A stretch of 64,000 bases of DNA. It comes from Alphaproteobacteria bacterium. GTDB taxonomy: Bacteria > Pseudomonadota > Alphaproteobacteria > UBA7985 > JAUIBT01. Positions 208 through 60,331 of this stretch are shown here, one piece after another (within the stretch, counting starts at the first letter, position 1; each line of letters begins with the position of its first letter). Location: positions 1 to 64,000 of the forward strand of contig JAUIDR010000003.1 of the NCBI GenBank assembly GCA_030428565.1. Reading direction: 5' to 3'. The notes beneath the pieces are model-generated. The model searched no databases. It was not told the DNA's origin and saw nothing but the letters and a program-made list of their open reading frames with translations. The position numbers and the translations under genes are program-made.

Positions 208-1026
208 ATGAGTGAACAAGGATCACAGAGTTTGCTTGAAGTGAACAATATCGAGGTCATTTACAACCACCTCATATTGGTTCTGAAGGGCGTCTCTATG
301 AACGTCAAAAAGGGCGCGATCACCGCACTTTTGGGCGGCAATGGCGCTGGCAAGACCACGACGCTCAAGGCCATCTCTAACCTGCTGCAGTCCGAGCGCG
401 GGGAAGTGACCAAGGGCTCGATCGTCTACAACGGCGCCAGCATCACCCAAAAATCGCCGAGCGCGCTGGTCAAGAGCGGTGTCATCCAGGTCATGGAAGG
501 CCGCCACTGTTTCGAGCACCTCACCATTGAAGAAAACCTGTTGACCGGTGCTTATACACGCGGCGATGGGCGCGGCGCGGTCGCGCGCGATTTGGAGATG
601 GTCTATTCCTATTTTCCGCGTCTAAAAGAACGCCGAAAATCGCAAGCGGGCTACACCTCGGGCGGCGAGCAGCAAATGTGCGCTATCGGCCGAGCGATCA
701 TGTCTCGACCTGAAATGATCTTGCTGGATGAACCCAGCATGGGCTTGGCCCCCCAGTTGGTCGAAGAAATTTTTGAGATCGTGCGCAATTTGAACGTGGA
801 GCAGGGCGTCACCTTCTTGCTGGCCGAGCAGAACACCAACGTGGCGCTGCGCTATGCGCACTATGGCTATATTTTGGAAAACGGTCGCATCGTGATGGAT
901 GGGCCCGCCGAAGAAATCCGCGAAAATCCCGACGTCAAAGAGTTCTATCTGGGGATGTCGGAATCGGGTCGAAAGAGCTTCCGCGATGTGCGCTCCTATC
1001 GCCGTCGCAAGCGCTGGCTCTCATAG
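208..1026 (+). CDS. livF: Branched-chain amino acid-type ABC transporter ATPase (LivF)
   Basis: ATP-hydrolysing subunit of a HAAT-family importer for branched-chain amino acids or related carboxylates, acting on the cytoplasmic face of the membrane. The 272-residue product has Walker A (GGNGAGKT, residues 43-50), an ABC signature (TSGGEQQ, about 150) and Walker B (ILLDEP, about 171). The switch region reads LLAEQN, with Gln where most ABC ATPases have His; LivF proteins normally have this. An AGAGGA ribosome site precedes the ATG. The basic C-terminal tail (RSYRRRKRW) is slightly longer than usual. The gene is followed closely by a PaaK-like ligase. In proteobacteria such pairs often belong to liv-type clusters, so the permease and binding-protein genes are probably left of the window. 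Family certain; substrate unknown. Confidence 0.93.
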   Translation: MSEQGSQSLLEVNNIEVIYNHLILVLKGVSMNVKKGAITALLGGNGAGKTTTLKAISNLLQSERGEVTKGSIVYNGASITQKSPSALVKSGVIQVMEGRHCFEHLTIEENLLTGAYTRGDGRGAVARDLEMVYSYFPRLKERRKSQAGYTSGGEQQMCAIGRAIMSRPEMILLDEPSMGLAPQLVEEIFEIVRNLNVEQGVTFLLAEQNTNVALRYAHYGYILENGRIVMDGPAEEIRENPDVKEFYLGMSESGRKSFRDVRSYRRRKRWLS

Positions 1027-1173
1027 GCCGGACGCACGAACGGAACGATCATGATACGCCCCCCATGGAGTTGGTTGCTAGCGGCCAACAAACCCAAAAC
1101 CAGCGCGCTGTCGGCGACGCAGGACGCCCCCGCTGCGTCCGCCCAACCGGTCGATGGCGCAGTAAGGACCGCT

Positions 1174-2397
1174 ATGTCAAAGTTCTATGATGACCTGGAG
1201 ACCCGTAGCAGCGACGCGCGCGAGGCCGATCTGTTCGCGCAGCTGCGTAGTCTGGTCGCCGCCGCGATGAAAAATTCGGCGCACTACGCCAAGAGCTTTC
1301 AGGGGATTGATCCCAACAGCCTGACCGACCGCGCAGCGCTGGCGGGCTTGCCGGTTCTGCGTAAATCAGACTTGGCCGAAATCCAAGCCGCAGACCTGCC
1401 TTTTGGCGGCGTCAATGCCATTCCCGCCGGGCAATTCCAGCGCATCTATCAATCGCCCGGTCCGATCTATGAAGCGGTGACAACAGCGCACGCGGGCAAA
1501 CGCATGGACCGCTTTTTGCATGCCATGGGCGTCACCAGCAGTGACGTCGTGCACAACTGCTTTTCCTATCATTTTACGCCAGCGGGTCTGATGTTCGATG
1601 CGGCCGCCCAGGCGATCGGCGCTCTGGTGTTTCCGGCCGGTGTTGGCCAGACGCAATTGCAGGCCCGCGCGGCGCATGACCTGGGCTCGACCGTTTATGC
1701 TGGCACGCCGGATTTCTTGTTGAAAATCATGCAAGAGGCCAAAGAGCAGGGCCTGGCGCTAAAATTCAGCAAGGCCGGGGTCAGCGGCGGTGCTTTGTTC
1801 CCAAGCCTGCGCGAGGAATACCGCCAAGCGGGCGTGACCTGCACCCAATGCTATGCCACCGCCGAGGCAGGCCTAATCGCCTATGAGAGCGAGAGCCAAG
1901 AGGGCATGATCGTTGACGAGAACGTCATCTTGGAGATCGTGCGACCCGGCACCGGTGATCCCGTCGGCGAAGGCGAGGTCGGCGAGGTTTTGGTCACGGT
2001 AATGGACCCGCAATTCCCCTTAATCCGTTTGGCGACCGGCGATTTGTCGGCTGTTCTGCCGGGTGCTAGTCCATGCGGGCGCAGCAATATGCGTATTAAG
2101 GGCTGGATGGGGCGCGCTGACCAGGCCGCCAAGGTCAAGGGCATGTTCATCCGCCCCGAACAAATCGCCCAGCTGTTGAAGGCCGTGCCCAGCATCGCGC
2201 GCGCCAAAGCGGTTGTTAGCCGTGAGGGCGAGAGCGACCACCTGGAACTGTTGTGTGAGAGCGAGAGTGGGGATTCGGCTGCATTTGCGAGCGCGGCGCA
2301 AGCGGCGCTGAAGCTGTCCGCTGACATCAAGATCGTGCCGGTTGGCAGTCTGCCCAACGACGGCCTGGTGATCGAGGACAAGCGCGACTATTCTTAG
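1174..2397 (+). CDS. PaaK-like (phenylacetate-CoA ligase family) adenylating protein
   Basis: Member of the phenylacetate-CoA ligase branch of adenylate-forming enzymes. The ATG at 1174 is preferred: TAAGGA lies just upstream, and the protein then begins MSKFYDDLETRS, like family members. An in-frame start at 1051 would add 41 low-conservation residues without a good ribosome site. The C-terminal half has the family block PLIRLATGDLS, then SPCGRSNMRIKGWMGRADQ. The glycine-rich ATP loop (SSGTTGKP in PaaK) is replaced by YQSPGPIYE near residue 93. This occurs in PaaK-like proteins of liv-type clusters, so the gene is not obviously broken, but ligase activity is uncertain. It is probably co-transcribed with livF and could activate or bind the imported acid. 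A clear paralogue is fused to the C terminus of the protein at 56328-60212. Confidence 0.85.
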   Translation: MSKFYDDLETRSSDAREADLFAQLRSLVAAAMKNSAHYAKSFQGIDPNSLTDRAALAGLPVLRKSDLAEIQAADLPFGGVNAIPAGQFQRIYQSPGPIYEAVTTAHAGKRMDRFLHAMGVTSSDVVHNCFSYHFTPAGLMFDAAAQAIGALVFPAGVGQTQLQARAAHDLGSTVYAGTPDFLLKIMQEAKEQGLALKFSKAGVSGGALFPSLREEYRQAGVTCTQCYATAEAGLIAYESESQEGMIVDENVILEIVRPGTGDPVGEGEVGEVLVTVMDPQFPLIRLATGDLSAVLPGASPCGRSNMRIKGWMGRADQAAKVKGMFIRPEQIAQLLKAVPSIARAKAVVSREGESDHLELLCESESGDSAAFASAAQAALKLSADIKIVPVGSLPNDGLVIEDKRDYS

Positions 2398-47711: not shown

Positions 47712-50321
47712 ATGTCATCACGCGCAGCCATGCTTTTTGAGATCGGGACGCGGTGTTTGTTGGCGCTGATGGTTGCCCGGCGGTCTGTCTTTAACGCGAG
47801 CCGAGCGGGCGTGCTGGTTGTGATCGCCAGTCTGGGGGCGATTTTATGGGCCGCGCCGATGGCCAGCGCTCAAAATTCGGGCCCTTACGGGCAAGCGGTG
47901 GTGATTATCATCGCTAACACGGAATACAGCCAGACCGACGACGTTTCCTATGCTGCGCGCGATGCCGATGCCTTCGAGGTTTTCGCCCGCGACGTCCTGC
48001 ACGCGCGCGTTTATCGCTACGACAATATGGGCACCAACCAAATGGGTGAGTTCTTCGGCATCGAAGGGCGTCCGGGCAGCCTCACCAACCATATTCTGGC
48101 GCCCAATACCGATCTTTACATTTACTATGCCGGGCACGGTACCCACGATGCGCCAGCGGACGGCAGCAAGGCGCGCAACTACATAATGCCGGTTGATGCC
48201 AACCCCGATCAGCGCTTTTTGGCGCGTCAGGCCTACGCACTGGAAGATTTAAAGCGCAGCCTCAATACCTTGCAAAATGGGCTGCTGTCGCAAGGCCGCA
48301 TTACACTGGTGCTTGAATCATGCTTTTCGGGCTTGAGCCCCAGCGCCGACGGCGGTGCTTCAAAGGGCTTGGTGCAGGGCGTTTCAGCGCCGCCACTGGG
48401 CCGCGCGCAAGACATTGAGACTCAAGACATCCGTTTGTGGGCGGCGACCTCGCCCGATACCGACTACGCAGTCTGGGATACCGAGTTTCAACGCGGCGTC
48501 TTTACCGACTCGTTGCTGTCGGGACTGCACGGCGGACGCGCGGATGCCGACGGCGATTTCAAAGTCACCGCCCAAGAGATGCAAAACTTCGTCACCTCGG
48601 CGGTTAATCGCCGCGTTGCTGCTCTGGGCAAGGGCGGGGCCAGCTTCCAGCAGCGCCCGATCTTCGTCGGCATGGACGGCGAAGATGTGGTGGTCAGCTA
48701 TCAGGGCGCGACATACCCCTCCTATTCGACCGACAAAGAGCGCGCCTACGTCGAGCGCTTTTTGGGCGAAGAGCTCATACAAGCAGCGTCTGATGCCCAA
48801 GATAGTGGCGATCTTGGCGCTATGAGCAGCGCCGCCGATGGCCTGCGCAACTATCTGACCCAATGCAGCTTTTGCGACGAGCGTACCGAGATCAACCGCG
48901 AATTGGCCAGTCTGAACGATGTGCTGAGCGCTTGTAAGGTCGAGGGGCGCTTTTTGGATCGCATCTTGGCGGACGAAAATATGAGCCGTCTGACGCGCTT
49001 TTTGGATCGCCTAGAGTGCGAGCAAATGCGCCTGGCCACGCAAGCTTGCCTGACCAGTGCCGACTTTGGCAGCGAGGCCTGCGGCTGTTTGGGCGATGAG
49101 GAGTGCCGCACCAAGCCGCAAGTTCAAATCAGCCCCTGCCAACAGGAATGGGATGGGGTCAAGACCGCAGCCGTCAGTGCCAAGGACACGCGCGCGCTGG
49201 CCACCTTCTTACGCCAAAAAGCCAGCGAGTGTTCGGCTGAGATCAAAGACGCTAAGCAGACCTTGGGCCAATTGTGTGAAGATCTAGCGCGCCAGGCGCG
49301 TTTGGGCGACAGCAACGCCAATCGCGCGACGCTGGAGCGCTTCGTCTCCCAGCACCGCGATTGCGCGACGCAGGTGACCTTGGCCAACTCTCAGATCCGC
49401 AGCCTGATAGAGCAAGAAGCGAACTCTGTCTGTAAAACAAGCTATGAAAAAGTGCGCAAGGCGGCGCTCAATCTTCAAGATACCAAAGCGCTGGCGAACT
49501 ATGTGTCGAGCCAAAGACAAAACTGCTCGACGGAAGCTAGGCTGGCCCAGCAGACCCTGGATAAACTGTGTGATGACTTGGCAAGAACCGCGCGCCTTGG
49601 GCGATCGGATGCCAATGCGGCGATGCTGGAACGTTTCGTCACCCATCATGGCGCGTGTCGTTCCCAGGTGGCGCGGGCCCGCGCGCAAATCCGCTCGCTG
49701 CGCGAGGAAGCCCAAGGCGAAGCTTGCCGTGATCGCTTTGATCTGATTAAGGGCTCGGACGACGAAGCCAGCTACACCGATTTCATTCGCTCTAACCCGA
49801 GCTGTAGCGCTGAAGTCGCAGAAGCCTACCGCCAAATCGACCTGTTGGTCAGCCGCAAACGCCAGTGCCAACAAGCATTCGTGCAAGCAGAGAGCCAGAA
49901 CAATAGCCAAGCCTTAGCGCGGTTTATGCAAAATTATAGCCACTGCAGCGAGCAGATCCCTGAGGCGGCCCGGATGATGCTCTATTGGCAACAGCAGGAG
50001 AGCCAACCCGCCAATCCTTACCCCTATGACGGCGTTTATATCGGTCGACGGGGCTATACCGGTTCCGGCCGTCCCAGCAAGACCAAGTGGTGTTTGTCGC
50101 GCTATAACTTCACCATGACCGTGCAGAACCACCGCGTTACCTTTGACTCTGACGGTCGCTATTGGCAGGGCTATGTCAATGACAACGGTCAAATTAAGAT
50201 CGAACACAGCGGTATTTCGCCTGCGCCCAAGCACAATACTTGGATTAGGGGATCGCTTAGCAATGCCGAGATGTATAATGGCTATTGCGGTTATGGCTAC
50301 TTCACCGTCCAGCGCCAATAA
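47712..50321 (+). CDS. Exported caspase-fold protein with 98-residue Cys-rich repeats
   Basis: Protein of 869 residues. A signal peptide or anchor spans about 30-54 (VLVVIASLGAILWAAPMASA). A C14 caspase-like domain follows (about 58-330), with catalytic His142 (YYAGHG) and Cys204 (LVLESCFSG). From about 390 the protein is helical and rich in regularly spaced Cys. Two full repeats of exactly 98 residues begin at Cys476 and Cys574, and a third, diverged one begins at Cys672. Each unit contains two Cys-to-Cys helical hairpins (motifs LxxLCxDLAR, ATLERFV, QIRSL). The last 95 residues form a beta-type domain (YDGVYIGRRGY to the C terminus) with two Cys. The even Cys pattern suits disulfides outside the cytoplasm. 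Function unknown; the repeat region could bind a partner or the envelope. Confidence 0.82.
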   Translation: MSSRAAMLFEIGTRCLLALMVARRSVFNASRAGVLVVIASLGAILWAAPMASAQNSGPYGQAVVIIIANTEYSQTDDVSYAARDADAFEVFARDVLHARVYRYDNMGTNQMGEFFGIEGRPGSLTNHILAPNTDLYIYYAGHGTHDAPADGSKARNYIMPVDANPDQRFLARQAYALEDLKRSLNTLQNGLLSQGRITLVLESCFSGLSPSADGGASKGLVQGVSAPPLGRAQDIETQDIRLWAATSPDTDYAVWDTEFQRGVFTDSLLSGLHGGRADADGDFKVTAQEMQNFVTSAVNRRVAALGKGGASFQQRPIFVGMDGEDVVVSYQGATYPSYSTDKERAYVERFLGEELIQAASDAQDSGDLGAMSSAADGLRNYLTQCSFCDERTEINRELASLNDVLSACKVEGRFLDRILADENMSRLTRFLDRLECEQMRLATQACLTSADFGSEACGCLGDEECRTKPQVQISPCQQEWDGVKTAAVSAKDTRALATFLRQKASECSAEIKDAKQTLGQLCEDLARQARLGDSNANRATLERFVSQHRDCATQVTLANSQIRSLIEQEANSVCKTSYEKVRKAALNLQDTKALANYVSSQRQNCSTEARLAQQTLDKLCDDLARTARLGRSDANAAMLERFVTHHGACRSQVARARAQIRSLREEAQGEACRDRFDLIKGSDDEASYTDFIRSNPSCSAEVAEAYRQIDLLVSRKRQCQQAFVQAESQNNSQALARFMQNYSHCSEQIPEAARMMLYWQQQESQPANPYPYDGVYIGRRGYTGSGRPSKTKWCLSRYNFTMTVQNHRVTFDSDGRYWQGYVNDNGQIKIEHSGISPAPKHNTWIRGSLSNAEMYNGYCGYGYFTVQRQ

Positions 50322-50435: not shown

Positions 50436-53400
50436 CTAGCGCGTTAAGGGAACCAGCACCGGTTGCCCATAGTAAGGTTGCGGGACCAGAACCGGTGCCG
50501 GAGCCGGCGCGGGGTAGTAGACCTGCGGCACGGGCGGTGGCGAGGCAAACACGCCCTGATTGGCATAACCCTGATTGGTAAAGCCCTGGTTCACATATCC
50601 CTGATTGGCAAAGCCCTGGTTGGCAAAGCCCTGACCAGCGTAGCCCGGATTGATGTAGGCTTGGCCGCTGTTGGTAGCGCCGCCAAAACCAGCACCCGGC
50701 AAAAGCGTGTTGCTTGCGGGATCGGCGGTCTGCGGTGATAGTCCCGAAACCAGACCCGAATTTAGGCCAGAAGGATGGTTGCCGACCGACGGCGTGTTCA
50801 CTGGCGTGGGGTTGGTTGTGGTCGGCTGTTGGGGCTGCTGGGGCTTTTGCGGTGCGCGCTTGCGCTCGGCTGCGGCGGTGCGCTTGGTCTTGTGGCCATC
50901 TTGCGCGATGCCCAAAGCGGCCAGGCCTCGTTCGGCCTCGCGATCAAAGCTGCGCCCGACGCGAAAGCCGCGCGCTTTCATAGCGATCGAGAGCTGACCA
51001 TTTTGCCAGTCGCGCATTCCGTTAAACAGGTCAGCAAAAATGGGACCAGCGATGCCGCCACCTGTGGCGCGCTTACCCAGTGATTCGGGCGTATCATAGC
51101 CGACAAACACCGCGATCAAGGTGTGCTCGTCAAAGCCAATAAACCAGGCATCGCGCGCGGCGTTACTGGTGCCCGTCTTGCCCATCAAGGGATAGGGCAC
51201 TTTGGCTTGGGTCGAACGGCCTGTGCCTTGCACCATGACCTGACGCAGCATGCCTTGCAGGTCTTTGGCCGCTTGCTGACTGACCGCCGCTTCGCCATCC
51301 AAGAGCTGACAGAAAGCCGACATGAGGCATTGCTCGCGGCTCTCTTGTTGGGCGCTAAACAGCAGCACGCCGTCTGAACCCTCTACGTGGGCCAGGGTCG
51401 TCGGCTGGCGATAGACGCCGTGGTTGGCAATCGCTGCGTAGGCCGCAGCCAGGCGCATCAAGCTGGTCTCGTTGGCTCCCAGGACCACCGAAGGATTGCT
51501 AAGCGGGGCGTCATAGAGGCGAAGGGCTTGCAGGGTCTGATTGATCGGCCCCAGTCCCAGCTTTTGGTACAGCCGCACCATCGGCACATTGCGCGAATAG
51601 GTCAGCGCTTTGGACAAGCTGATATTGCCCCAAAACTTGCGGTCATAGTTCTGCGGGCTCCAGTCGGGCGCGCCCGGCGAGCGGATGGTCAATTTTTGGT
51701 CAGCCAGTTTGGTGTTTGGCGACAAGCCATTGCTGAGCGCGGCCAACGCCACGAAGGGCTTTATGGTCGAACCCGGTTGGCGCAGGGCCTGGGTGGCGCG
51801 ATTGAAGTGCGAAAGTTTGGGCGAGACACCGCCGACCAGCGCCTTGATTTGGGCGGTCTGGGTGTCCATGACTAGCGCTGCACCGCTGAGCAGCGGCAGT
51901 TGGCGCAAGCGATAGCGCGGCAGGCCTAGGCTGGTGCTTTCTGCTGGTGCTTCGCCATTGTCGCGGGGGGTTGCATCGGCGTTCGCCGAGGCATTCATCT
52001 GGGCACTCACCTCCACATAGGCTGCGTTGAGCAAAGAGGCGGCGTTACCGGGCAAGGCAGGCTCTTCGCCTTGGTCCTTGCCGGGGCCTGTGCCGGGCAG
52101 CTCGGCCGGGCGTTCGGCCAGCGCTTCGACCCAAACAACATCGCCTGGAAACAAAACCTGATCGACGCGTTCGGGGTAGGGGCCGGGGCCTTGGCCAAAG
52201 CGGTAGGGACGCGCCCAGGCCATGTCTTCAAGGCGCATGCGTCCTTCTTGGCCGGTCTTGAACAGCAGGCGTGCTTGTGCGCCGCTGGTTTGAATGATCA
52301 GGGCCGGGCGCCAGCCGGGGAAGACCTGCGCGAGTTGCAGGTCCAAGAAGGCGCGATCCCAGCCTTTTTCGTGCAGATTGAGCCGCTGAATGGGGCCGCG
52401 AAAGCCTTCTTTCACATCCAAAGTAAGGATGTGCTCCTGCAGGGTCATTTCGGCGAGCTGTTGCAAGTCGGGGTCCAAGCTGGAGCGCGCTTGCAGGCCC
52501 TGCGAATAGATGGCGGCCTCGCCAAAGCGCTGTTCGAGCTCACGTTGGACTTCAAGATCGAAATAGCTCGACGGTGAGCCGCGCAGGCCATAGTGAATGG
52601 TCTGAGGCAAGCTTTGGGCTACCGCGTACTGGGCATCGAGTTGCGAAATGATGCCCGCCTCTGCCATGCGCGCCAGCACCCAATCGCGGCGTTCTTTGGC
52701 CGCTTCGGGATGGCGTAAGGGGTGGTAGTTGTTGGGGCCCTTGGGCAGAGCGGCCAAAAAGGCGGCTTCGCTCAGGTCCAAATCTTTGATCGATTTGCCG
52801 AAATAGCGTTCGGTAGCTGCTCCGACCCCATAGGTGTTGACCCCGAAAAAGACCTCGTTGAGGTAGATTTCCAGGATCTGAGACTTTTCAAGGCGTTGTT
52901 CCAGCTTGGCGGCCAGGATGGCCTCGCGCAGCTTGCGCATAAATGTGCGATCGGCGCCGACGTACATCTTGGCGACTTGTTGGGTGATGGTCGATCCACC
53001 CAACGCGCGCTGCTTTTGGTAAGAACGCTTGATGTTGGCAAAAGCCGCGCGCAGCAAGGAAATGCCGTCGACGCCTCCATGCTCAAAGAAGCGCTGATCT
53101 TCGGCGACCAGAAAGGCATAAATCAAGTGGTCCGGCAAATCTTCGTAGGGCACGAACAGGCGATATTCGCGCGACAAGCGGAACATGGCATTGCCGCTTT
53201 GATCGGTCACTTCGGTGGCCACCACCGGGCGATAGCGATACAGCGGTGAAGGGTCCGGCACCGTGCTGGCAATCATAAAAAAGGCCACCACTCCACCAAG
53301 GCACGCAACCGCCAGCCCGCTGGCAATCCAAGTCACGGCAAAAGCGGTGAAACGCAGCAAGGGCAAAGACACCCGCATCGCCAGAGCGCGGAACAAAAAC

Positions 53401-53534
53401 CGCAGCGGCGCAAGCAGGGCCGATAGCATGAGCGCGAGCAAGTTGGACTTTGCTTTGCGTTCGACCAGGCGAGAGTGTTGATGTAAGGGGCGCGGTGCCC
53501 TACTTAACGAGGAGCGAGCCTGATGGGTTGGCAC
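50436..53534 (-). CDS. mrcA: Penicillin-binding protein 1A
   Basis: Bifunctional class A peptidoglycan synthase, 1032 residues. A membrane anchor is at about 63-95. The glycosyltransferase domain (GT51) has EDQRFFEHGGVDGISLLRA near 144 and GGSTITQQVAK. An OB-like insert follows. The transpeptidase domain has SxxK at Ser589-Lys592 (PGSTIKPF), the YSRN motif and GKTGTSN (about 785). After about 890 comes a long disordered tail rich in Pro, Asn and Gly. It includes six 5-residue repeats of the (F/Y)-x-N-Q-G type from a 15-bp DNA repeat. Divergent from the S49 peptidase gene. Confidence 0.95.
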   Translation of the reverse strand: MPTHQARSSLSRAPRPLHQHSRLVERKAKSNLLALMLSALLAPLRFLFRALAMRVSLPLLRFTAFAVTWIASGLAVACLGGVVAFFMIASTVPDPSPLYRYRPVVATEVTDQSGNAMFRLSREYRLFVPYEDLPDHLIYAFLVAEDQRFFEHGGVDGISLLRAAFANIKRSYQKQRALGGSTITQQVAKMYVGADRTFMRKLREAILAAKLEQRLEKSQILEIYLNEVFFGVNTYGVGAATERYFGKSIKDLDLSEAAFLAALPKGPNNYHPLRHPEAAKERRDWVLARMAEAGIISQLDAQYAVAQSLPQTIHYGLRGSPSSYFDLEVQRELEQRFGEAAIYSQGLQARSSLDPDLQQLAEMTLQEHILTLDVKEGFRGPIQRLNLHEKGWDRAFLDLQLAQVFPGWRPALIIQTSGAQARLLFKTGQEGRMRLEDMAWARPYRFGQGPGPYPERVDQVLFPGDVVWVEALAERPAELPGTGPGKDQGEEPALPGNAASLLNAAYVEVSAQMNASANADATPRDNGEAPAESTSLGLPRYRLRQLPLLSGAALVMDTQTAQIKALVGGVSPKLSHFNRATQALRQPGSTIKPFVALAALSNGLSPNTKLADQKLTIRSPGAPDWSPQNYDRKFWGNISLSKALTYSRNVPMVRLYQKLGLGPINQTLQALRLYDAPLSNPSVVLGANETSLMRLAAAYAAIANHGVYRQPTTLAHVEGSDGVLLFSAQQESREQCLMSAFCQLLDGEAAVSQQAAKDLQGMLRQVMVQGTGRSTQAKVPYPLMGKTGTSNAARDAWFIGFDEHTLIAVFVGYDTPESLGKRATGGGIAGPIFADLFNGMRDWQNGQLSIAMKARGFRVGRSFDREAERGLAALGIAQDGHKTKRTAAAERKRAPQKPQQPQQPTTTNPTPVNTPSVGNHPSGLNSGLVSGLSPQTADPASNTLLPGAGFGGATNSGQAYINPGYAGQGFANQGFANQGYVNQGFTNQGYANQGVFASPPPVPQVYYPAPAPAPVLVPQPYYGQPVLVPLTR
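50554..50643 (-). repeat. 15-bp coding tandem repeat in the PBP1A tail
   Basis: Six 15-bp units of the CCCTGATTGGCAAAG type run from 50554 to 50643. They encode repeated Asn-Gln-Gly pentapeptides in the disordered periplasmic tail. Confidence 0.9.
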
Positions 53535-55170: not shown

Positions 55171-55211
55171 TGCTGCGGGCTCGCGGTCACGAACTCCCCG
55201 ATTGGGGCGCG

Positions 55212-55265
55212 CGGTTTGGGGCTCCCGGTTTGGGGCTCCGGGTTTGGGGCTCCGGGTTTGGGGAC
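55212..55265 (+). repeat. 14-bp tandem repeat (about four copies)
   Basis: CGGTTTGGGGCTCC occurs twice from 55212, then two GGGTTTGGGG(CT/A)CC variants. It lies between the zinc-ribbon and SixA genes. Confidence 0.88.
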
Positions 55266-56327: not shown

Positions 56328-59300
56328 CTACGCGCCGCGACGATCGACGATCAAGGGCCCGTAGGGCGAGATCGAGCCTTGCGGGCGAAGGATGGTCTGC
56401 CCTTCAAGACCGGTAAAAATGTGCAGCTCGCGATTGCCGTCGTGGACCAGCTTGTCTTCATCGGCGTCGGGTCTGGCGACCAAATTGAGCGTCACACCTT
56501 GCACATCGTCGATCTGGATCAGGCCCGCTTCCGCGTCAGGCAAGGCTTCCAGCAACGCCAGAACTTGTGCGCCGTGCAGGGCCGAGCCGTCCTCAAAGAA
56601 CAGCACTTCATCCTTTGCACCCATCCAGCCTTGAATCTTGGTGTTGCTGCGTTGCGAGGGGCTGCTGTCTTGCAGCTCACGCGTTAGAACGCCGGTCGCG
56701 ATACGGAACAAGGGCGTGTGCTTGTCTAGCCGCGTGACCACCAGCTCCCCGATTTCACCCGCGTTGACCTGCTCGCCGGTCGCGGGATCGCAGATCTCGA
56801 CGATCAAGCGTTCGCTACAAACGAAGGGCGCTTCGCCCGCTGGCTGATAGGCGATCATGCCAAAGAATTCATCCATCATCGTGCCGGTGATGGAAATGCG
56901 TGGGAAGGCCAACTTCAGGGCTTCTGGGATCTGGTCGTTGGCTTGATCGACGACCGCGATGCGCAGCGGCAGTGCCGTGACGCCTTGTTCCTTGGCGGTC
57001 GCGAGCATCGCGATGAGGGATTCAGCGGGGCCAACAAAGACATCGACGTCAAATTCGATCACCGTTTTGAGCAGGCGCGGCACGTCCACATCGCCCACCG
57101 CGATCGGCGTTGTCCCCAAGCTGAGCGCTGCGGCCTGCATCATAGCGCCGTGCGTCCCGCCATCGAAGGAGTAGGCGTTGAGCAAGATGTGCTTGTCGGT
57201 CACGCCCGCAGCATACAGGGCCGGTGCAGCATTGGCCCAATCGCCAAAACGGCCGACCGCGATGCGCGCGCCAGAGACCGACGCCAAGATCTGTTTGAGG
57301 TCATTGGACGGGGTGGTGGTCAGACCGCCAAAGGGCGGTTTGTCCGCTTGGGCCTCGAACAATGATGACAGGGGTGTGGTCGGAAAGCCGCGCAGCGCGT
57401 TGCGGCTGGTCATCTCATTGTGGTCCACGCTGTCCCAAACAAAATCCCAAAAGCGGGCTTTGGCCTGTGCTAACTCCATGAACATGGGCAGAGCCTCAAA
57501 CAGCATGGCCTCGCGCTCTGCTGCCTCCATGGTCTCCTGGCTATCTTTGGGGATCGGGGCTACGTCGCCAATGCTGCGCGGCGGCGCCTGTGTGACTTTG
57601 AAATCAAAGGTATGGGCGGGGGTCTCAGGCTTGCTGGTCTCGGCCAAGATTTCAAATTCATGGTCGGGCTCTGCGGCGGGCTGGCTCTCATCGCCCGCGG
57701 CCTTGGCTTCGACCTCTGCGGCGGCTTCTGCTTCTGCGGCGGCTTGGCCGGTGCTAGCGACCAAGGGATTGGCTGGCGCTGCGGGGCTCGGCTCGCCATG
57801 CGTGTCAGCCTCGTTGATCTCAACGTCGCGCTCCTGGTCCGAGGGCGGTTCGTCGCTTGCAGTTTGCTCGTCGCTTTCCGTGTCAATTGGTTGGCCCAAC
57901 TCGCTTAGGTCGGGCGCGCCCAGCGCGTCGTCGTCCGCCGCCAGGCCCGCCAGGTCGTCAACGCGCGCCGCATCGTCCAGCGCGGACCCGTCCGGGCTCA
58001 GTTCGTCGCTCGCAAGCGCTTCTGGTTCGGATTCGGATGCCGGTCCCGGTTCTGCTTCTGGTCCCAGTTCTGCTTCTGGTTCCGGTTCTGCTTCGGGTTC
58101 CGGTTCTGCTTCGGGTTCCGGTTTTGGGCTTGGATCCAGGCCCACAGCTTGCGGCTCAGGAAAGGCGGTCAGCGGCGTTTCCTTGTCTTGTTGCAAATCG
58201 AGGATGTTGGCAAACAGGTCCAAGGCCTCGGGGTTGGCCAGCGCTTCTTTGTTTTTGACGGCGCGGCCATGCACGACATCGCGCACCGCCAGTTCGGTGA
58301 TCTTGCCCGACTTGGTGCGCGGGATATCGTCAACCGCCACGATAATCGCGGGCACGTGGCGCGGGCTACATTCAGCGCGCACGCGCTTGCGGATGTCCGC
58401 GCGCAGATCATCGCTCAGTGCCACGCCGTCAGCCAAGCGCAAAAACAGCACGACGCGGGTGTCGTCCTGCCATTCCTGGCCGATGACCAGCGCCTCGGCC
58501 ACTTCGTCGAAGGTCTCGACCTGGCGATAGAGCTCAGCGGTGCCAATACGCACGCCGCCGGGGTTCAGCGTCGCGTCCGAGCGGCCATAGACCAACATGC
58601 CGCCGCGCTCGTTCAACGAAACATAATCGCCGTGGGTCCAGATACCCTCAAAGCGGTCAAAGTAAGCGTCGTGGAAGCGCTGACCGTCGGGGTCGTTCAA
58701 AAAGCCCAGCGGTACGGAAGGGAAGGGCTTGGTGCAGACCAGCTCACCCTTTTCGCCGACGACCGGGTTTCCTTCTTCGTCGAAAACGTTGGTCGCCATA
58801 CCCAAGCTGCGCTTTTGAATTTCGCCGCGATAGACTGGCGAGATGGGCGAGCCGCCCATAAAGCAACTGACAATGTCGGTGCCGCCGGAGACCGACGATA
58901 AGCACAGGTCTTCTTTGACGTTCTGATACACGTAGTCAAAGCTCTCGTGCACCAGCGGCGAACCGGTTGAAGCCAATACGCGCAATTCGCTCAACAGGCG
59001 CCCGGCCTTGGGTTTGAATTCCTGCTTGCGCAGCGCATCCAGATATTTGGCCGAGGTGCCGAAGAAGGTCACGCGTTCGGCTTCGGCCATGTCCCACAAG
59101 ATTTCCGCCGAGGGATAGAAAGGCGAGCCATCATAAAGAACGATGGTGGCTTTCAGCGCCAGGTTGCTGACCAGCCAATTCCACATCATCCAGCCGCAGG
59201 TCGTGAAATAGAAGACCCGATCACCCTCGCTGATATCGCAGTTGAGGCCCATTTCGGCCAGGTGCTTGAGCAAGACACCGCCTTGACGGTGGATGATGCA

Positions 59301-60212
59301 TTTGGGCGCACCGGTGGTGCCCGAGGAGAACATGATATAGAGCGGCTCATCGAAGTCTTGGCGCACGAACGTCAGCGCATGGGGCTCATAGCCAGCCAAG
59401 ACCTGATCCAGGCGCTGGGCTTTTTCGATGTGCGAGATCTCGGGCGCCGGCTCTAAGAAGGGCTGCACCAGAACGCCTTGCAGGCTTGGCAGGCCCGGTA
59501 CGATCTCCTCGACTTTGGGCAGAATGCCGATGGCTTTGCCCGCATAGCGGTAGCCGTCTACGGTTATCAGCACCTTGGGCTCGATCTGTTCAAAGCGGTC
59601 TAGTACGCCACGCACGCCAAAGTCGGGTGACGCTGAAGAGAAGACCGCGCCCAAGCTGGAGGTGGCCAGCATGGCAACGATGGCTTCGGGGATGTTGGGG
59701 ATGTAGGCGGCCACGCGGTCGCCGCGCTCGACACCCAAATCCTTCAGCGCTTGTTGCATGCGTGAGACTTGATCGCACAGCTCTTGGTAGCTCAGGGCCG
59801 AGCGGCGGCCTTCTTCGGTCCAAGAGACAATGGCCAGGCTGTCGGGGTCGCGATCGCGCAGCAGGTTTTCTGCAAAATTGAGCTTGGAGGTCGGGAAGAA
59901 GCGCGCGTTCTTCACATCATCGCCGTTGACCAGAAACGGCGCATAGCCGGGGTCGCCTACAACGTCGAACTGCTCCCAGATCTGTTCCCAAAAGTCCTCG
60001 ACGCGCGCGACAGACCAGTCATAGGTACTGTCGTAGTCTTTCAGCTCGGTACCGTATTCTTCGTTGACCTTCTGCATGAAGCGCCAAAGCCGTGTCGCGG
60101 CAATACGCTCTTCTCCCGGAGCCCACAGCAGGGCGTTGCTGTCGCTCGTTGCGTTGGCTTGAGCGGTGCCCAGGTCTTCAGAGCCTGTATCTGTGGGGTT
60201 TAGGTCGGTCAT
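56328..60212 (-). CDS. Acetoacetyl-CoA synthetase fused to a degenerate PaaK-like domain
   Basis: Protein of 1294 residues from the ATG at 60212 (GGAGG 4 nt upstream). Residues 1 to about 665 are a complete acetoacetyl-CoA synthetase: ATP loop FSSGTTGAPKCI (about 304), LVYGRSDATLNPGGVRIG, and catalytic Lys637 in RTKSGKITELAVRD. Then comes an acidic low-complexity linker of about 220 residues with Pro-Glu repeats. Residues from about 895 to the end match the PaaK-like protein at 1174-2397 (IVEICDPATGEQVNAGEIGELVV, PLFRIATGVLT, SNTKIQGWMG). The second domain lacks the ATP loop and ends in VDRRGA where the paralogue has EDKRDYS, so it is probably non-catalytic. A regulatory or substrate-sensing role is possible. 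No frameshift is seen. It is divergent from an SDR gene. Confidence 0.9.
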   Translation of the reverse strand: MTDLNPTDTGSEDLGTAQANATSDSNALLWAPGEERIAATRLWRFMQKVNEEYGTELKDYDSTYDWSVARVEDFWEQIWEQFDVVGDPGYAPFLVNGDDVKNARFFPTSKLNFAENLLRDRDPDSLAIVSWTEEGRRSALSYQELCDQVSRMQQALKDLGVERGDRVAAYIPNIPEAIVAMLATSSLGAVFSSASPDFGVRGVLDRFEQIEPKVLITVDGYRYAGKAIGILPKVEEIVPGLPSLQGVLVQPFLEPAPEISHIEKAQRLDQVLAGYEPHALTFVRQDFDEPLYIMFSSGTTGAPKCIIHRQGGVLLKHLAEMGLNCDISEGDRVFYFTTCGWMMWNWLVSNLALKATIVLYDGSPFYPSAEILWDMAEAERVTFFGTSAKYLDALRKQEFKPKAGRLLSELRVLASTGSPLVHESFDYVYQNVKEDLCLSSVSGGTDIVSCFMGGSPISPVYRGEIQKRSLGMATNVFDEEGNPVVGEKGELVCTKPFPSVPLGFLNDPDGQRFHDAYFDRFEGIWTHGDYVSLNERGGMLVYGRSDATLNPGGVRIGTAELYRQVETFDEVAEALVIGQEWQDDTRVVLFLRLADGVALSDDLRADIRKRVRAECSPRHVPAIIVAVDDIPRTKSGKITELAVRDVVHGRAVKNKEALANPEALDLFANILDLQQDKETPLTAFPEPQAVGLDPSPKPEPEAEPEPEAEPEPEAELGPEAEPGPASESEPEALASDELSPDGSALDDAARVDDLAGLAADDDALGAPDLSELGQPIDTESDEQTASDEPPSDQERDVEINEADTHGEPSPAAPANPLVASTGQAAAEAEAAAEVEAKAAGDESQPAAEPDHEFEILAETSKPETPAHTFDFKVTQAPPRSIGDVAPIPKDSQETMEAAEREAMLFEALPMFMELAQAKARFWDFVWDSVDHNEMTSRNALRGFPTTPLSSLFEAQADKPPFGGLTTTPSNDLKQILASVSGARIAVGRFGDWANAAPALYAAGVTDKHILLNAYSFDGGTHGAMMQAAALSLGTTPIAVGDVDVPRLLKTVIEFDVDVFVGPAESLIAMLATAKEQGVTALPLRIAVVDQANDQIPEALKLAFPRISITGTMMDEFFGMIAYQPAGEAPFVCSERLIVEICDPATGEQVNAGEIGELVVTRLDKHTPLFRIATGVLTRELQDSSPSQRSNTKIQGWMGAKDEVLFFEDGSALHGAQVLALLEALPDAEAGLIQIDDVQGVTLNLVARPDADEDKLVHDGNRELHIFTGLEGQTILRPQGSISPYGPLIVDRRGA
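58043..58114 (-). repeat. 18-bp coding tandem repeat in the fusion linker
   Basis: Four 18-bp units (58043, 58061, 58079, 58097) encode a Pro/Glu/Ala run in the linker between the two adenylating domains. Confidence 0.88.
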
Positions 60213-60331
60213 CCTGCCTCCAGCGGTCTTGCTTGGTTTGCCTTCGTCGCCTTGGCTAGCAGGACGAAGGCACTGCGGTGGGTCTCGGGTCGGTCCGCAC
60301 CTGCCCTTGTGTCGCAGGCTGTGTTGACGTA

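Follow-up and report, generated by a model that had tools for sequence, protein, structure and literature searches.

In the window of 64,000 nucleotides, that is, the whole stretch of DNA that was analysed, a single gene encodes a complete acetoacetyl-CoA synthetase (AacS) that continues in frame through a long acidic linker into a degenerate, PaaK-like domain of the AMP-forming ligase type. The enzyme itself is known, and its combination with a putatively dead ligase domain is a new architecture; the C-terminal domain, which is kept by selection, probably serves within the protein as a regulatory or docking module without a described precedent. The open-access literature that was searched described neither an AacS joined to another ligase domain nor an AacS pseudoenzyme, in agreement with a preliminary description of this DNA that knew of no described example.

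The fusion gene and its acetoacetyl-CoA synthetase part

The reading frame, for which the preliminary description gave no strand, runs on the minus strand from 60212 to 56331 (Table 1). It encodes 1294 residues with zero internal stops, as that description had it. An upstream TTG, which would give a 1358-aa ORF, is disfavoured as the start, because the ATG at 60212 has GGAGG just ahead of it. A divergent SDR gene adjoins the fusion gene, and there is no livF beside it.

Table 1. Coordinates of the fusion gene, its domains and motifs, and the free paralogue locus within the window.
Feature	Position	Strand	Basis or remark
Whole fusion gene	56328..60212	-	1294 aa + stop; ATG 60212, stop 56328-56330; architecture identical in G001 and G002
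GGAGG ribosome-binding site, 5' of ATG 60212	60217..60221	-	Sequence
AacS domain, residues 27-674	58191..60134	-	TIGR01217 5.5e-268, PRK03584 3.8e-283, both over cut-offs
AacS ATP loop SSGTTGAPK, residues 296-304, intact	59301..59327	-	Translation, motif check
AacS catalytic Lys637 in PRTKSGKITE, intact	58302..58304	-	Translation, motif check
Acidic Pro/Glu/Ala/Asp linker, residues 681-888	57549..58172	-	Composition; interspecies identity
Degenerate PaaK-like domain, residues ~889-1294	56331..57548	-	hhalign to LivF-linked family; PDB matches
A3 ATP-loop position, ASVSGARIA, residues 977-985, replacing PaaK ASSGTTGKP	57258..57284	-	60-sequence alignment
A7 Asp to Val1175 (TGD to TGV)	56688..56690	-	Alignment
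A8/hinge GAKDEVLFFEDG, residues 1198-1209, replacing GRSDDMIILRG; Arg to Ala1199	56586..56621	-	Alignment
A10 Lys position, Pro1286 (EGK/DGK to YGP)	56355..56357	-	Alignment
Free paralogue of C-domain, probable source family	1051..2397	+	31% identity to fused domain; A7 Asp and A8 Arg kept, A10 Lys lost (DGL)
ATPase of a LivF-type ABC transporter, immediately 5' of free paralogue	208..1026	+	NCBIfam LivF PRK11614 6e-61

The AacS part matches its family profiles in full, with 890.5 bits against the AacS equivalog TIGR01217 (cut-off 520.9) and 940.6 bits against PRK03584 (cut-off 639), and its nearest solved structure is the acetoacetate-CoA ligase PDB 4WD1 (1.7e-165). All of its ANL motifs are intact, namely A3 SSGTTGAPK (296), A7 GDYV (527-531), A8 YGRSD (542) and the A10 Lys (637); scores and motif positions together bear out the earlier claim of a complete AacS with its ATP loop and Lys637. 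A set of 18 AacS loci from other families has 97 strictly conserved columns, of which the fusion retains 95; the two departures are Asn324 in place of His and Leu561 in place of Ile. It is also the sole full AacS of the genome, in which the next match has 28% identity. We infer that the fusion gene encodes an active acetoacetyl-CoA synthetase. The AacS of other families ends within a few residues of 674 wherever the end is readable, and none of those checked carries a comparable extra C-terminal domain, whereas the fusion continues for 620 residues further; the total of 1294 aa is thus far outside the ~650-670 of a single-unit AacS, a difference of architecture that is no bar to membership of the enzyme family. 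A tie to PHB metabolism was considered and not made, since the searches yielded no more than a PHA-synthase match below its cut-off and numerous generic SDRs.

The linker comprises 208 residues, with 26% D+E, 3% K+R and a net charge of -48, and is probably disordered; the preliminary description had recognized its Pro/Glu/Ala/Asp character and put its length slightly too high, at about 220. Its identity to the two congeneric proteins is 62% and 39%, vs 81-93% for the flanking domains. Five islands within it (LGAPDLS, LGQP, INEADTH, PANPLV, and FDFKVT) were considered as binding motifs and set aside (P 0.25 for the longest run by column shuffle).

The same in-frame fusion is present in all three species available for the genus, one of uncultured alphaproteobacteria, that is, in the window and in two congeners (G001 and G002), and the linkers differ in both length and sequence while the frame is kept. 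The fusion is real and not an assembly artefact, and the sequence search thereby upholds the two-domain order that the preliminary description had read from one sequence. The two congeners are metagenome-assembled genomes, which could favour an assembly or sequencing artefact that joined two genes; however, they were assembled independently, and the same join in three species and three assemblies makes such an artefact scarcely credible. The sequencing error that the preliminary description had entertained is excluded, because the three species share the fusion with diverged, in-frame linkers.

Beyond the genus, in none of the eight other genomes of the order does a match to the C-domain lie in a frame that could accommodate AacS together with this domain, and no such frame was found in a class sample of 385 apart from the window's genome (G000) and G002, or in a phylum sample of 398 apart from G000. 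These samples together cover ~740 distinct other genomes, in which the longest other frame with a C-domain match has 738 aa. Frames of ~630-740 aa at other relatives of the C-domain were rejected as fusions, the additional part in those that were read being mostly the LivF gene in another frame. A scan of genome contigs recovered only the two congeners, and scans of viral contigs for C-domain relatives gave one fragment and otherwise nothing.

Three further observations concern the neighborhood of the gene. A short tandem repeat of the GGGCTCCGGGTTTG type occupies intergenic positions 55205-55265. Positions 50436-53534 encode a protein that resembles, by eye, penicillin-binding protein 1A and ends in NQGFANQGY-type repeats, and a similar repeat tail is found near the fusion in G002 (L039). 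Positions 47712-50321 encode an 869-aa protein with no NCBIfam match, the N-terminal part of which resembles, on visual inspection, a C14 (caspase-type) peptidase and is followed by repeated Cys-containing segments.

A degenerate domain and its LivF-linked relatives

The C-terminal ~400 residues have zero significant matches in Pfam, and their NCBIfam matches (paak_haloarch, 3e-17; TIGR02155, 3e-11) are far below the family cut-offs, with 42.6 bits against the 646.3 required for PaaK (TIGR02155). The PDB matches found by phmmer and hmmsearch are PaaK-type enzymes, the best being 4R1L (2e-16). The family assignment rests decisively on profile comparison, in which the domain aligns to the profile of a LivF-linked PaaK-like family with an hhalign probability of 100 and E 1e-45 over 401/414 columns, vs a probability of 98.3% and E 2e-14 for canonical PaaK. 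The second domain is therefore PaaK-like, as first described, and its derivation is from the LivF-linked family, which stands apart from PaaK in the tree.

All four adenylation motifs are replaced in all three fused copies, as judged from the 60-sequence alignment (Table 1). The losses of the SSGTTGKP loop (now ASVSGARI) and of the C-terminal Lys (EGK to YGP) agree with the first account, and the degeneration goes beyond it, in that the A7 Asp is gone as well, and with it the A8 Arg (GRSD to GAKD). The A7 Asp is present in 30/30 LivF-linked relatives, in 3/3 congeneric free copies, and in 13/13 PaaK. The likeness to PaaK (TIGR02155; 2Y27, 2Y4O, 4R1L) is one of superfamily, by sequence, whereas the fused domain is far under the PaaK cut-off and is without the ATP loop, A7 Asp, A8 Arg, and A10 Lys. 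Because these motifs are lost, the C-domain cannot be expected to adenylate, a prediction that is supported by the A3-loop mutagenesis tabulated for PaaK relatives (PMC8388817).

The LivF-linked family, which was brought to light by this analysis, is widespread and has an unusual ATP loop, SPGPIYDPEG, in place of SSGTTGKP throughout. Its members (window positions 1051-2397; loci L043-L073) are free-standing proteins of ~410 aa, preceded in the same orientation by a LivF-type ATPase in 28/32 loci, and within 200 bases in 24; along with the A7 Asp they retain the A8 Arg (30/30) and mostly the A10 Lys (28/30). The fused domain is 28-35% identical to them, and it retains 61 of the 136 columns conserved in the free family; instead of the family signature (SPGPIYDPEG loop, TGD, GRAD) it has VSGARIAVG, TGV, and GAKD. 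Since the LivF-linked family is already without SSGTTGKP, the loss of that loop probably preceded the fusion; only the fused copy has lost the Asp of A7 and the Arg of A8.

A maximum-likelihood tree unites the fused domain with the LivF-linked family in one clade apart from canonical PaaK (support 100/100), which rules out direct descent of the C-domain from the latter. When the fused domain was constrained to group with the free copy of its own genus, the likelihood was better than that of the quick free search by 11.8 units (p-AU 0.81). Moreover, the genus's free copy has 8-13 rare residues in common with the fused domain, vs 0-10 for the others, the 10 belonging to the free copy of a genome of the same order. 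The source of the fused domain is thus probably the genus's own LivF-linked copy, although both branches are long and attraction between them is possible. The genus retains this free copy and a canonical PaaK alongside the fusion; in the window's genome the latter is over the cut-off and encoded elsewhere (G000:C109). The free copy has itself lost the A10 Lys (DGL, 3/3) and has a stem of 0.96, longer than that of most relatives.

The stem of the fused domain measures 4.51 changes per column and its tips 0 to 0.15, and the combination of a very long stem with short tips indicates that the domain lost catalysis, then diverged rapidly, and then froze. Such a burst of change followed by freezing could also be read as the rebuilding of the domain into a different enzyme that acts on acetoacetyl-CoA or acetoacetyl-AMP by way of new invariant residues, and new invariant stretches, GRFGDWANAAPAL and GTMMDEFFGMIAYQP among them, are common to all three species. 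However, the C-domain matches no further catalytic family in Pfam or NCBIfam, and three sequences are too few to reveal a catalytic constellation; we regard new catalysis as unlikely.

Constraint on the fused domain and its possible roles

The C-domain is as well conserved among the three species as the enzyme to which it is attached, with identities to the congeners of 92.5% and 85.7%, compared with 92.0% and 80.6% for AacS. The dN/dS values are 0.041, 0.066, and 0.095 for the C-domain and 0.042, 0.152, and 0.145 for AacS, all of them rough, with synonymous sites near saturation. As the C-domain is well kept while the linker drifts, these comparisons indicate that it is under strong purifying selection. 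The disappearance of every catalytic motif would suit a passenger, the functionless relic of an accidental fusion, but a relic would be expected to drift as the linker does. The dN/dS (0.04-0.10) and identity (86-93%) of the C-domain match or surpass those of AacS, which makes a passenger very improbable.

We consider that there is about an even chance that the protein combines an active AacS with a pseudoenzyme module that acts in cis on AacS, whether through oligomerisation, through regulation or as a docking part. On this view, the LivF-linked PaaK-like gene of the genus would have contributed a copy that became attached to the 3' end of aacS by way of a long acidic tether; the module would then have lost ATP binding and catalysis and diverged quickly, until strong purifying selection for a role outside catalysis set in. 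The domain would most likely retain the fold of PaaK, along with the N-terminal part, and would join two AacS chains, or AacS and the free paralogue, thereby modulating the activity or position of AacS; a CoA ester or acid might still be bound in the remnant of the pocket. A dead second domain might also, as the preliminary description proposed, sense a CoA ester, bind a partner or channel acetoacetate. Dimerisation, ligand binding, and action on AacS are all put forward here as predicted properties of the domain.

In PaaK-type enzymes the A3-A5 half binds ATP and acid. Of the columns conserved in the free family, the fused domain keeps 15/20 in its N-terminal part vs 16/52 in the A3-A5 half (Fisher P 0.001), although the better retention may only reflect distance from the lost active site. 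PaaK1 and PaaK2 are homodimers, and their dimerisation goes with the N-terminal microdomain (PMC8388817). An oligomerisation or regulatory module is favoured because the N-terminal part is the best kept and because of this link to the PaaK1/PaaK2 dimers; dimerisation of the fused domain would be a property transferred from relatives that are only ~20-30% identical to it. The AlphaFold2 models have mean pLDDT values of 47.5 for the C-domain (4 sequences) and 32.1 for a 1200-residue stretch, so low that the pocket and dimer interface are not inspectable; a Foldseek search with the 47.5-pLDDT model places PaaK enzymes first at TM 0.23, which merely repeats the sequence result.

The known control of AMP-forming CoA ligases operates largely in trans, the catalytic Lys being acetylated. 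Acetyltransferases of the Pat type have two domains, the large one described as 'likely regulatory', and the PatA of S. lividans inactivates AacS (PMC4053389), a precedent in this pathway for a sizeable regulatory domain. That Pat regulates AacS in trans shows that AacS activity is worth controlling (PMC4053389). The likeness of the fusion to Pat-type enzymes is one of idea, a large fused domain that sets the activity of an acyl-CoA synthetase; Pat carries a GNAT domain and works on another protein in trans, whereas the extra domain of the fusion is a PaaK-like one of the AMP-forming type and belongs to the very protein that would be its target. A PF13607 search, which covers enzymes of the NDP-ligase type, found no Pat-type GNAT/NDP-ligase acetyltransferase. 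The locus G000:C88:13051 (L105:979-3147) encodes a 722-aa acyl-CoA synthetase of the NDP-forming type that has no GNAT domain.

The main rival to an in cis oligomerisation or regulatory module, possible but less likely, is that the domain serves as a docking or scaffold part, contributing neither catalysis nor allostery, and holds AacS at a partner such as a Liv-type importer or the free paralogue, so that an acid brought in by import or made nearby is activated on the spot. The position of the source family beside LivF in 28/32 loci is consistent with this, the long acidic tether would suit reach over distance, and the congeneric free paralogue is unusual in its lost A10 Lys and its stem of 0.96. 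The columns lost in the free paralogue also overlap those lost in the fused domain (19/25, P 0.026), but the overlap is weak and may reflect common descent. As part of a docking role, a Liv-type transporter might, by tentative conjecture, be the carrier of acetoacetate. It is rather doubtful, if conceivable, that a dead subunit belonging to a Liv-linked ligase system was captured by AacS, with the fused domain pairing with the Lys-less paralogue (window positions 1051-2397) and placing acetoacetate activation at a Liv-type importer; if true, this would couple acetoacetate uptake to CoA activation via a pseudoenzyme adaptor.

If the favoured reading of an active AacS with a module acting in cis is true, the gene clearly exemplifies the conversion of a ligase into a pseudoenzyme inside a single lineage, and a CoA ligase with a built-in, selection-kept dead ligase domain would represent a new way to regulate or place an enzyme of this type.
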